Shown in pieces: positions 3,138 to 5,754 of a DNA stretch of 64,000 nucleotides. Source of the DNA: Gluconobacter potus (GTDB lineage Bacteria > Pseudomonadota > Alphaproteobacteria > Acetobacterales > Acetobacteraceae); assembly GCF_015244705.1 (NCBI RefSeq), contig NZ_JABCQF010000002.1, positions 372,001 through 436,000 of the forward strand, read 5' to 3'. The notes beneath the pieces were generated by a model. It saw nothing but the letters and a program-made list of their open reading frames with translations. It was not told the DNA's origin and made no database searches. A program made the translations under genes and the position numbers. Numbering within the stretch: the first letter of the stretch is position 1; every line of letters starts with the position of its first letter.

Positions 3138-3974
3138 ATGCTCACGCGACGCACACTGGCCGGTGGTCTGTTCACGGGGCTTTCAGGGCTGCCGTTGCTG
3201 CTGCCCATGACGGCGTTCGGGCGTCATCCGCTCCATGGAAAACTGCACACGCCCGCCGTGCATCGCGGTGCTGCACCTCCGAAGCCGCTCGTCATGCTGG
3301 ATCCTGGCCATGGCGGGAAGGATCCCGGTGCGATCGGGATTTCCGGCACCTACGAAAAGCATATTGCGGAAGCCGCCGCGTCCGAACTGAGCCGTCAGCT
3401 CCTCGCATCGGGCCAGTACCGTGTCGCCATGACACGCTCCGAAGACCGCTTCATCCCGCTGGAAGGACGCGTCGAACTGGCCCAGCGGCATCAGGCGCAT
3501 CTCTTCATTTCCATGCACGCAGACGCCCTGCATGACAGGGATGTGCGGGGTGCAAGCGTCTATACACTGTCCAGTGGCGCTTCGGATGCGCAGACGGCCT
3601 CTCTTGCGCGGAGTGAAAACAGTGCGGACCGGTTTGCCGGGCCAGCCTTTCACGGCATGTCGCCCGACGTGCAGCAGATCCTGGCCAGTCTTGTTTCCGA
3701 AGAAACGCGGCGTGGTTCGGCGCATATGGCGGCAAGTGTCGTCAATTCGTTCCGGAACAGGATCGGACTACTAACTCATCCGTCACGTCATGCAGCGTTC
3801 GTGGTTCTGAAATCGTCCGAAATTCCATCTGTTCTGGTGGAAATGGGATTCATGTCCAACCGGCTGGATGAAGCGGCACTGCGTCAGGCCGTGCATCGCA
3901 CGCAGGTCGCCAGCGCCATGAAAACAGCCATAGACCGCTATTTTGCTACTCATGCCGGTGTCATGACGGGCTGA
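3138..3974 (+). CDS. N-acetylmuramoyl-L-alanine amidase (Amidase_3, AmiA/AmiC type)
   Basis: Zinc amidase that cleaves the bond between N-acetylmuramic acid and L-alanine of peptidoglycan, used in cell separation. The chosen ATG gives 278 residues beginning MLTRRTLAGG, a twin-arginine-like signal followed by a hydrophobic stretch, so export by the Tat system is likely, as for E. coli AmiA and AmiC. Zinc ligands are visible as H58 in LDPGHGGKDPG, E73 and H127 in SMHADA; E235 in LVEMGFMSN is the catalytic glutamate. There is no AMIN targeting domain between the signal and the catalytic domain, so it is shorter than AmiC. An upstream in-frame start at 3015 would bury the signal and is rejected. 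TatB and TatC are encoded at 31.2-32.6 kb. Confidence 0.9.
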   Translation: MLTRRTLAGGLFTGLSGLPLLLPMTAFGRHPLHGKLHTPAVHRGAAPPKPLVMLDPGHGGKDPGAIGISGTYEKHIAEAAASELSRQLLASGQYRVAMTRSEDRFIPLEGRVELAQRHQAHLFISMHADALHDRDVRGASVYTLSSGASDAQTASLARSENSADRFAGPAFHGMSPDVQQILASLVSEETRRGSAHMAASVVNSFRNRIGLLTHPSRHAAFVVLKSSEIPSVLVEMGFMSNRLDEAALRQAVHRTQVASAMKTAIDRYFATHAGVMTG

Positions 3975-4050
3975 TCCGCCCACCATGCAATGGAGAGTTC
4001 ATGGTCATGCGGGTTGCGCATGAGGAAAGAATCGGTCATTTAACGCAGCC

Positions 4051-4095
4051 ATGACGTTTCTTTCGATCCTCTCGCTTCGACTTATCGGCCCCTGA
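4051..4095 (+). CDS. Leucine-rich leader peptide upstream of leuA (leuL-like)
   Basis: A 14-codon frame reading MTFLSILSLRLIGP ends at TGA 4093-4095, 87 bases before leuA. Four of 14 codons are Leu and two are Ile. The four Leu codons are CTT, CTC, CTT and CTT, none being CTG, the codon that dominates genes in this window, which would make translation sensitive to scarce leucyl-tRNA. The stop codon lies inside the left arm of an 11-bp hairpin. No good Shine-Dalgarno precedes the ATG (GAGG at 4022-4025 is too far), so the leader may be read from a start close to the 5' end of the mRNA. Leader-peptide control of leuA is known in proteobacteria; this instance is inferred from sequence only. Confidence 0.6.
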   Translation: MTFLSILSLRLIGP

Positions 4096-4176
4096 ACGCC
4101 TTTCCAAGGCGGACAGCGCTCCGTTGCGTTCAGGGGATAACAGACCGAAAACCATCCTGAACCAGACGAGACGATC
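4065..4176 (+). promoter_or_regulatory. Possible long-range pairing of leader Leu codons with the leuA ribosome binding region
   Basis: GATCCTCTCG at 4065-4074, inside the Ile-Leu-Ser codons of the leader peptide, pairs with CGAGACGATC at 4167-4176, directly upstream of the leuA ATG (4183), with one C-C mismatch in ten. The 11-bp hairpin 4089-4136 would sit within this helix. A ribosome stalled at the Leu codons would free the leuA start region. This is a model from base complementarity, not a known element. Confidence 0.4.
4089..4136 (+). promoter_or_regulatory. 11-bp hairpin of the leuA leader
   Basis: CCCCTGAACGC (4089-4099) is an exact reverse complement of GCGTTCAGGGG (4126-4136). The inside can fold on its own as CGCCTT/AAGGCG (4097-4102, 4106-4111) or CGGA/TCCG (4110-4113, 4120-4123), so alternative folds compete. 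The right arm is followed by ATAACAG and not by a T-run, so it is not a simple intrinsic terminator. The left arm contains the stop codon of the leader peptide, so ribosome position would decide whether the stem forms. Confidence 0.6.
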
Positions 4177-4182
4177 ACAATC

Positions 4183-5754
4183 ATGAGCTTCCAGCATCCG
4201 TCTTTCGGCACGATCGCCGACGACCGCGTCATCATTTTCGACACCACGCTGCGCGACGGCGAACAGTCCCCCGGCTTTTCGATGAACCTCGAAGAGAAGC
4301 TCCGCATGGCCCATGCGCTGAGCAATCTGGGCGTGGACGTGATTGAGGCTGGCTTCCCGGTGGCTTCCGAAGGCGATTTCGAGAGTGTGCGTCGCATTGC
4401 CGAAGATGTCCGTGGCTCGGTGATCTGCGGTCTGGCCCGCAGCGGTGGCAAGCGTGATATCGAATCCTGCGGTGAGGCACTGAAGAAGGCCGAGCGTCCG
4501 CGCATCCACAACTTCATTTCCACCTCGCCGTTGCACATGAAGTACAAGTTGCGGATGGAGCCGGAGACGGTTCTGGAAATCATCGCCTCGGGCAACCAGA
4601 AGGCACGCCAGTTCACGGATGACGTCGAATGGTCGGCCGAGGATGGTTCCCGCACTGATCCGGACTTCCTGTGCCGCTGCGTGGAAGTGGCGATCCGTAA
4701 TGGCGCCAACACGATCAACATTCCCGATACGGTCGGCTTTGCCACGCCGGAAGAAATGCGCGCCATCTTCACCATGCTGCGCGAGCGCGTGCCGGGTGCG
4801 GATCAGGTCATTTTCTCCGCACATAACCACAACGATCTGGGCCTCGGTGTTGCCAACACGCTGGCATCCGTCGAAGGTGGCGCACGCCAGATCGAATGCA
4901 CCATCAACGGCATCGGCGAGCGCGCAGGCAATGCGGCGCTTGAAGAAATCGTCATGGCGCTGCGGACCCGTCACGACCAGTACGGCAAGACGACCGGCAT
5001 CGAGACGACGAAGCTGCTGGGTATGTCCCGCATGCTGGCCACGATCACGGGCTTTGATGTCCAGCCGAACAAGGCCATCGTCGGTCGCAATGCCTTTGCG
5101 CATGAAAGCGGCATCCATCAGGATGGTATTCTGAAGAACGCTGCGACCTACGAGATCATGACGCCGGAAAGCGTGGGCTGGAACAAGACCTCGCTGGTCA
5201 TGGGCAAGCATTCCGGTCGTGCGGCCTTCCGCGACAAACTGGCGCAGCTTGGTTACCCGCCGCTGGAAGACGAGGCCCTGAATGCCGCGTTCGCGCGCTT
5301 CAAGGATCTGGCCGACAGCAAGAAGGTCGTGTTCGATGACGATATCCGCGCGCTCGTCGATGACGAGAGCCGCGATCACGAGCGGGTCCACCTGATTTCG
5401 CTGGAACTGGCGTCCGGCACGAAGCAGAAGTCCCACGCCAAGCTCGAAATCAGCGTCGATGGCGCCATCCAGTATGCAGCCGTCAGCGGCAACGGACCGG
5501 TCGATGCGGCCTTCCGCGCCATTGGGGAAGCATTCCCGCATACGGCCGAACTCGCACTGTTTTCGGTTGCCAATGTTACCGAAGGCACGGATGCCCAGGC
5601 CCGCACCACGGTGCGCCTGCAGGAAAACGGCAAACTCGTGGACGGGCAGGGGGCCGATGCCGATACGGTGGTGTCCGCCGTCCGCGCCTATATCCATGCG
5701 CTGAACAAACTCCTGACCAAGCGTGAGCGGACGGAGCCGGAAGCGCTGTCCTGA
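4183..5754 (+). CDS. leuA: 2-isopropylmalate synthase
   Basis: First committed enzyme of leucine synthesis: acetyl-CoA plus 2-oxoisovalerate gives 2-isopropylmalate; cytosolic. The 523 residues match the usual length. The HMGL-like TIM barrel starts with [13 protein letters not shown] (about residues 18-30) and carries the metal-binding HNHNDLG near residue 210. [15 protein letters not shown] and MGKHSGR follow in the middle section, and the C-terminal regulatory domain (about 385-510), which binds leucine in the family, is complete. It stands alone: leuB, leuC and leuD are not adjacent. Only a weak SD (GACGAG) precedes the ATG, which fits translational control by the leader. A strong terminator follows. 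Confidence 0.97.

Follow-up and report, generated by a model that had tools for sequence, protein, structure and literature searches.

Upstream of leuA in Gluconobacter potus we found a leader device through which leucine-starved ribosomes most likely turn on the gene; many relatives have a device of this sort before leuA. The element is probably a translational attenuator of leuA. It was analysed in a stretch of 64,000 nucleotides, referred to as the window, where a leader frame and a hairpin sit between the gene of an N-acetylmuramoyl-L-alanine amidase and leuA (Table 1). A leader gene this short is one that annotation may miss. The leuA product carries the domains HMGL-like (2.3e-86) and LeuA_dimer (6e-31); by protein similarity its closest named LeuA match was that of G. 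oxydans NBRC 14819 with 100% over the best segment.

Table 1. Features of the leuA leader region in window coordinates.
Feature	Position	Strand	Remarks
Leader ORF MTFLSILSLRLIGP-UGA	4051..4095	+	14 codons; ATG at 4051, stop TGA 4093-4095
Helix 1, 5' strand, Ile-Leu-Ser codons (GATCCTCTCG)	4065..4074	+	9/10 pairs with 4167-4176
Conserved core CTTCGACTTATCGG (Leu-Arg-Leu-Ile-Gly)	4075..4088	+	forms the 5' side of helix 2 in relatives; weak in the window
Hairpin, left arm (region 2), contains leader stop codon	4089..4099	+	exact 11 bp, kept in relatives
Hairpin, right arm (region 3)	4126..4136	+	exact 11 bp, kept in relatives
Region 4 (TCCTGAAC), alternative partner of region 3	4155..4162	+	7 to 9 pairs in 24/24 clade loci
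Helix 1, 3' strand (CGAGACGATC)	4167..4176	+	overlaps putative weak leuA Shine-Dalgarno sequence
leuA, 2-isopropylmalate synthase, 523 aa	4183..5754	+	

The original prediction described a frame of 14 codons with four Leu and two Ile codons and no CTG, an exact 11-bp hairpin that lacks a T-run and holds the stop codon in its left arm, and pairing of nine out of ten positions between the Ile-Leu-Ser codons and a stretch ahead of the leuA ATG. All of this was exact to the letter. The Leu codons are CTT, CTC, CTT and CTT, those for Ile are at positions 4066 and 4084, and the 3' strand of helix 1 ends 6 nt 5' of the leuA start codon. In the minimum free energy fold of the window TTCG at 4076-4079 pairs with CGAA at 4146-4149, a weak form of helix 2. 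The stretch 4046-4194 folded with -45.7 kcal/mol and a z of -2.87, equal stability being reached by 3 of 200 shuffles; its stability exceeds chance. A scan of 3950-4300 yielded no sigma-70-like promoter, and no Shine-Dalgarno sequence was seen by eye before the leader ATG in the window. Also by eye, a TTGCG...CATTT stretch directly 5' of the leader ATG (window 4000-4050) was common to the Gluconobacter relatives. Judged by sequence, the leader mRNA may be leaderless.

Conservation within the Acetobacteraceae was assessed in 80 leuA loci that were gathered by LeuA protein similarity alone. The strict pattern of core CGACT(T/A)A plus hairpin was present in 74 of them; the core alone was present in L027 and L040 and the hairpin alone in L060, L077 carried a variant element, and L068 and L080 matched nothing. 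The covariance model R1 matched 85 of the 87 Acetobacteraceae genomes having a LeuA match of E <=1e-100, a hand count from a table of 100 family genomes, with G013 and G081 missing; overall, 177 of 200 family genomes matched. A start codon exactly 14 codons before the stop was found in 41 of 75 named Acetobacteraceae loci, the other 34 having only other in-frame starts, and the leaders of 14 codons include diverged peptides such as MVISIRLTLRLISP and MTFDARLTLRLISP. No further copy of the element was detected in the own genome: the next best match (E 0.0116) was the same hairpin in antisense and the remainder had E values of at least 0.96. Extra R1 matches in G083, G147 and G191 were rejected as further copies, each being the antisense of the same hairpin. 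The Acetobacteraceae genome G183 has two leuA-like genes, each preceded by its own copy of the element (L255, L256). None of the Rfam 15 covariance models, those of T-boxes, riboswitches and leaders included, matched at the element with gathering or relaxed thresholds, and the search of 15 relatives returned one sub-threshold HgcC match (E 0.25) at 277-414 of L168, away from the element.

Model R1 also matched 56 of 289 genomes of the class. The broader model R2, on the way to which 68 of 73 prepared sequences were aligned and five left out, matched 103 of 387 sampled class genomes. In a sample of the phylum 82 of 397 genomes matched; 81 of these belong to the class and the sole outsider was a weak match with an E of 7.9e-4. 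Attenuators tend towards rapid sequence drift. In contrast, one leader and hairpin core before leuA is recognisable across 53 families of the class, as counted from the R2 table with some matches near threshold.

In a set of 233 loci, many of which had been gathered through LeuA and some of which repeat one genome, a motif identified the gene downstream of the element as LeuA in 228; inspection of the sequence did so for the remaining five, one of them LeuA2-like. In another set, which includes several repeats, the motif was found in 35 of 43 loci. In a third set of 19 loci, LeuA was recognised by inspection in 16 (four LeuA2-like); of the other three, two were left unassigned and one was read on the wrong strand. 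A frame for a LeuA2-type synthase follows the element in L235, L294, L296, L306 and L312. This suggests that the type of enzyme changed while leader control stayed. LeuA was not the downstream gene in one case, L319 (G543:C14:107284-107358). This locus is the second R2 match of its genome and a weak one (E 3.9e-4); the hairpin is again CCCCTGAGCG/CGCTCAGGGG, and the leader is not Leu-rich. The frame after this hairpin presumably encodes a threonine dehydratase (IlvA). The hairpin of L319 may serve another branched-chain gene or may be a chance match.

For comparisons between loci, 18 of 251 loci failed the search pattern, some of them visibly with variants. The 228 loci with a start were reduced to 117 by removal of redundant ones and of those with a start <25 nt from the hairpin; the leuA starts were picked by a script according to Shine-Dalgarno strength and may be wrong in some loci. 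In the 117 loci the eight codons that precede CGA total 936, of which 460 (49%) encode Leu; in the leuA stretches of these loci the Leu share is 7.5%. The choice of Leu codons differed as well: CTT made up 207 of the 460 leader codons versus 3.4% of the Leu codons in the leuA stretches, and CTG 84 of 460 versus 69% in leuA. All 117 leaders contain the CGA codon although it amounts to 2.4% of the Arg codons in leuA. Because the search pattern demanded GACT, CCCC and GGGG and some loci were model-derived, the invariance of those letters is partly due to selection; the C of CGA was not demanded by the pattern. Some families are without the CGA codon (CTTCTTATC.GCCCCTGAGG).

The leader stop is located at the UGA position in 86 of 117 loci and further downstream in the rest, by six nt in 30 and by nine nt in one. 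In these 31 non-redundant loci (e.g. L104, L111) UGG stands in place of UGA, and the stop follows two or three codons downstream. Nascent-peptide arrest is known from TnaC, which responds to tryptophan, and a peptide end LRLxxP at the stop might similarly stall the ribosome in response to leucine. A succession of Leu, two variable residues, Pro and stop in 86 of 117 leaders is in line with such an arrest. Yet the residue after Leu is variable (I, S, T, R, M, P), and arrest at Pro-stop is weakened by the 31 loci that read TGG at the stop and run on. We consider nascent-peptide arrest highly improbable.

The hairpin was examined in alignment A2, in which 96.6% of the hairpin cells were paired and no slid register had >55% paired. 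Both sides had changed in 20 cells, a number reached by 0 of 500 shuffles; these double-side changes fall at 4 of 10 pairs, and 43 of 500 shuffles reach as many. In loci that we take to be sphingomonad-like, a guess at their kinship, the stem is altered to GCCCUUGGGCG/CGCCCAAGGG in a compensating manner. Thus the hairpin is maintained by pairing and not by letters alone. Within the Acetobacteraceae CCCCU and AGGGG were unvaried in 62 of 62 sequences and CGACT was nearly so. Such invariance goes beyond the needs of pairing or peptide, partly as a result of locus selection, and would be expected of an RNA that is bound by a protein or a small molecule, with the leader frame as a by-product. However, the invariance is broken with compensation in the sphingomonad-like loci, and elsewhere the CGA codon is lost while in-frame Leu codons persist. 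A binding RNA of this kind appears quite improbable to us.

Helix 1, which joins the Leu codons to the ribosome site of leuA, had 6 to 11 pairs in all 24 Gluconobacter/Neokomagataea loci, some of which are from the same genome. Inside Gluconobacter, L019 has a compensatory double change in this helix from GATC:GATC to GGTC:GACC. We paired the leader strand with the 24 nt preceding leuA, taken from the same locus or from other loci. With the 117 non-redundant loci the dG of helix 1 was -14.84 for own strands versus -13.11 between loci (z -7.0), and the control with reversed strands gave a z of -1.4. Two other controls were also raised for helix length: pairing of the leader with the start of leuA (first 24 nt) gave a z of 4.2 (dG z -1.6), and pairing of the ribosome site with sequence upstream of the leader gave a z of 3.3 (dG z -1.8). 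This indicates that kinship or composition inflates the 117-locus test. Therefore, the test was redone on 28 loci, each from a different family. Helix 1 then yielded a P of 0.00125 for dG and of 0.011 for length, and the reversed and upstream controls were not significant. For helix 2, formed by the core CGACUUANNN and the stretch after the hairpin, the dG was reached in 0 of 20,000 permutations with a P of 0.24 for the reversed control.

Examples of helix 1 are UCCCUUC:GAAGGGA in L237, CGCUUCG:CGAAGCG in L205, GGUCCUUC:GAAGGACC in L158 and CUUCGGCUGC:GCAGCCGAAG in L148. The helix is short in 72 of 117 loci (3-5 contiguous Watson-Crick pairs) and strong in Gluconobacter. Over the 117 loci the ribosome site and the 5' strand paired with a probability of 0.49 versus 0.36 in chimaeras (z 8.5), and the core and the downstream stretch with one of 0.55 versus 0.40 (z 10.6). 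In many loci helix 1, helix 2 and the CCCCUG hairpin stack into one long hairpin with the ribosome site in its base; the computed folds comprise nested structures only. The end of helix 1 was not linked to the position of the leader stop (P 0.57). As judged by these sequence comparisons, the helix between Leu codons and ribosome site is real. Covariation in the helices and conservation of the Leu codons among relatives, which the original prediction proposed as a test, were both found: leader frame, Leu codons, hairpin and helix 1 are conserved, and the helices co-vary.

Region 4 includes CCTGA in every one of the 24 Gluconobacter/Neokomagataea loci, in which it forms 7 to 9 pairs with region 3. 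Its partner within region 3 of the window is GTTCAGGG (4128-4135), with one G-U pair. The 3:4 helix formed in folds that omit region 2 (4096-4194 and 4120-4194), the stem reaching 4168, or 4171 in the shorter piece; these folds were not clearly stabler than shuffles (z -1.40 and -0.68). In the free-RNA ensemble of the 117 loci pairing of region 3 with the downstream stretch was rare, 0.06 versus 0.07 in chimaeras. The duplexes of these two parts in the 117 loci were stabler than those formed after shuffling of the downstream part (combined Z -6.2).

A layout of regions 1-2-3-4 and region 3 duplexes that beat shuffled sequence would suit transcription attenuation, in which the leader chooses 2:3 or 3:4 and either Rho or a hairpin without a U-run releases the polymerase. 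Another point for it is L077, the variant element of a Commensalibacter MAG (1340-1420), with eight T directly after the hairpin, the stop TAG and few Leu codons; from its sequence a switch to transcription termination is possible there. On the other hand, the scan of 3950-4300 revealed no intrinsic terminator, and the hairpin of the window is without a T-run. At least five T in the 10 nt after the hairpin were present in 8 of 117 loci, so T-rich tails are the exception. The view that this is not a classical terminator, which was part of the original prediction, is supported. Moreover, helix 1 reaches the ribosome site and co-varies, which is unneeded for termination. We regard transcription attenuation as rather unlikely.

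Translational attenuation, the reading we prefer, would operate as follows. In the free RNA the 5' strand with the Leu codons would pair with the ribosome site of leuA, the 2:3 hairpin being nested inside, and leuA would be closed. A ribosome stalled on the Leu codons would cover the 5' strand and leave 2:3 in place so that the leuA site would be open. With sufficient leucine the ribosome would proceed to UGA in region 2, and its rear edge would uncover the strand with the Leu codons, closing leuA again; the usual footprint of a ribosome at UGA places the rear edge 3' of this strand. Region 3 may then turn to region 4 beside the ribosome site, which would also close leuA. We infer the stalling, the order of the states, the role of 3:4 and the direction of the response with leucine shortage as the on-signal.

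This proposal was compared with folding in which a masked 27-nt ribosome was placed at successive A-site positions. In the window the ribosome site was unpaired with a probability of 0.15 without a ribosome. The value rose to 0.71 when the A site was at the Ser codon 4072 and to 0.60 when it was at the Leu codon 4075, and was 0.20 and 0.14 with the ribosome at the Pro codon and at the stop. Any A site from -19 to +8 gave 0.37 to 0.71 (0.37 to 0.46 at positions other than 4072 and 4075), so opening was not limited to Leu codons. L018, L019 and L020 behaved like the window and L023 dropped only to 0.26 at the stop. In L148 and L237 from other families the site also closed with the ribosome at the stop. 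Across species, 59 of the 117 loci were used; the means were 0.38 without a ribosome, 0.49 with the A site at -4 and 0.41 at the stop, and those of chimaeras were 0.39, 0.47 and 0.41. Opening of the site by the stalled ribosome in the 59 species was 0.105 compared with 0.082 in chimaeras (P 0.19), and the difference between stall and stop was not greater than in chimaeras (P 0.38). With the means of chimaeras so close to those of the species, the ribosome walk is no evidence at the level of the class. Thus the translational attenuation of the original prediction is backed by conservation and covariation of leader, Leu codons and helices and by a ribosome walk that fits the Gluconobacter relatives, but not by the walk in 59 species, which did not rise above chimaeras. 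Further points against it are the short helix 1 of 72 loci, the missing link between the end of this helix and the leader stop, the rarity of 3:4 in the free RNA, and the lack, judged by eye, of a Shine-Dalgarno sequence before the leader ATG.

A more far-reaching view, which we advance tentatively and with more doubt than confidence, is that of an ancient, class-wide alphaproteobacterial leuA switch with four regions and three states set by the ribosome: closed in the free RNA, open with the ribosome on the Leu codons, and closed at the stop by 3:4 and the freed Leu strand. Masking of the ribosome site would take the place of a terminator. If the mechanism is true, acetic acid bacteria and other alphaproteobacteria would possess a translation-level leucine sensor. 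They would then also be an easy host for the question left open in 2005 for the LEU element of Actinobacteria.

The leu leader of enterobacteria is a classical transcription attenuator with several Leu codons of less used kinds and competing folds. The element of the window is like it in having a short peptide with several less-used Leu codons and competing RNA folds, and unlike it in being without an intrinsic terminator or U-run, in a closing helix that reaches the ribosome site, and in having no Rfam match. Vitreschak et al. reportedly described ilv leader peptides of alphaproteobacteria in 2004 as transcription attenuation. These leaders share with our element the branched-chain amino acid leader peptide and the class; the gene is another one. 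An ilvB leader peptide is named in PMC1273637, and leuA does not appear as a term in the accessible part of that paper. No description of an alphaproteobacterial leuA leader was found in the literature searched, which was mostly without subscription papers, or in the accessible parts of PMC10117765, PMC4117421, PMC2965389 and PMC4833913.

In most Actinobacteria leuA is preceded by the LEU element, which has a Leu leader and a base stem between Leu codons and the Shine-Dalgarno sequence (Seliverstov et al. 2005, PMC1262725). A pseudoknot or an alternative hairpin was described for it, and the mechanism was left open with a binding protein suggested (PMC1262725). The architecture thus had a precedent, although the original prediction took it as not known. 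Mutations in the leuA leader of S. coelicolor did not behave as attenuation (Craster 1999, as cited in PMC1262725). In S. lividans, with the leader peptide MRFGLLLLSCRGEGL, a typical terminator is reported missing (PMC8079986, in part), and the leuA leader of C. glutamicum is covered in PMC3890552 and PMC4046766 (both in part). As compared with the published description of the LEU element and one published leader peptide, our element agrees in its place upstream of leuA, a leader ORF rich in Leu codons, and a base stem that joins Leu codons to the Shine-Dalgarno sequence of leuA and bears alternative inner structures. The lack of a typical terminator is shared with the S. lividans leader as given in the accessible part of PMC8079986. 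The four Leu codons of the window are not consecutive. LRLIxP is absent from MRFGLLLLSCRGEGL (PMC8079986, in part). Furthermore, our element belongs to other bacteria and has, within the Acetobacteraceae, a nearly invariant CGACUUA...CCCCUG/CAGGGG core. Taken together, the principle is already described for Actinobacteria and the alphaproteobacterial version is apparently new.
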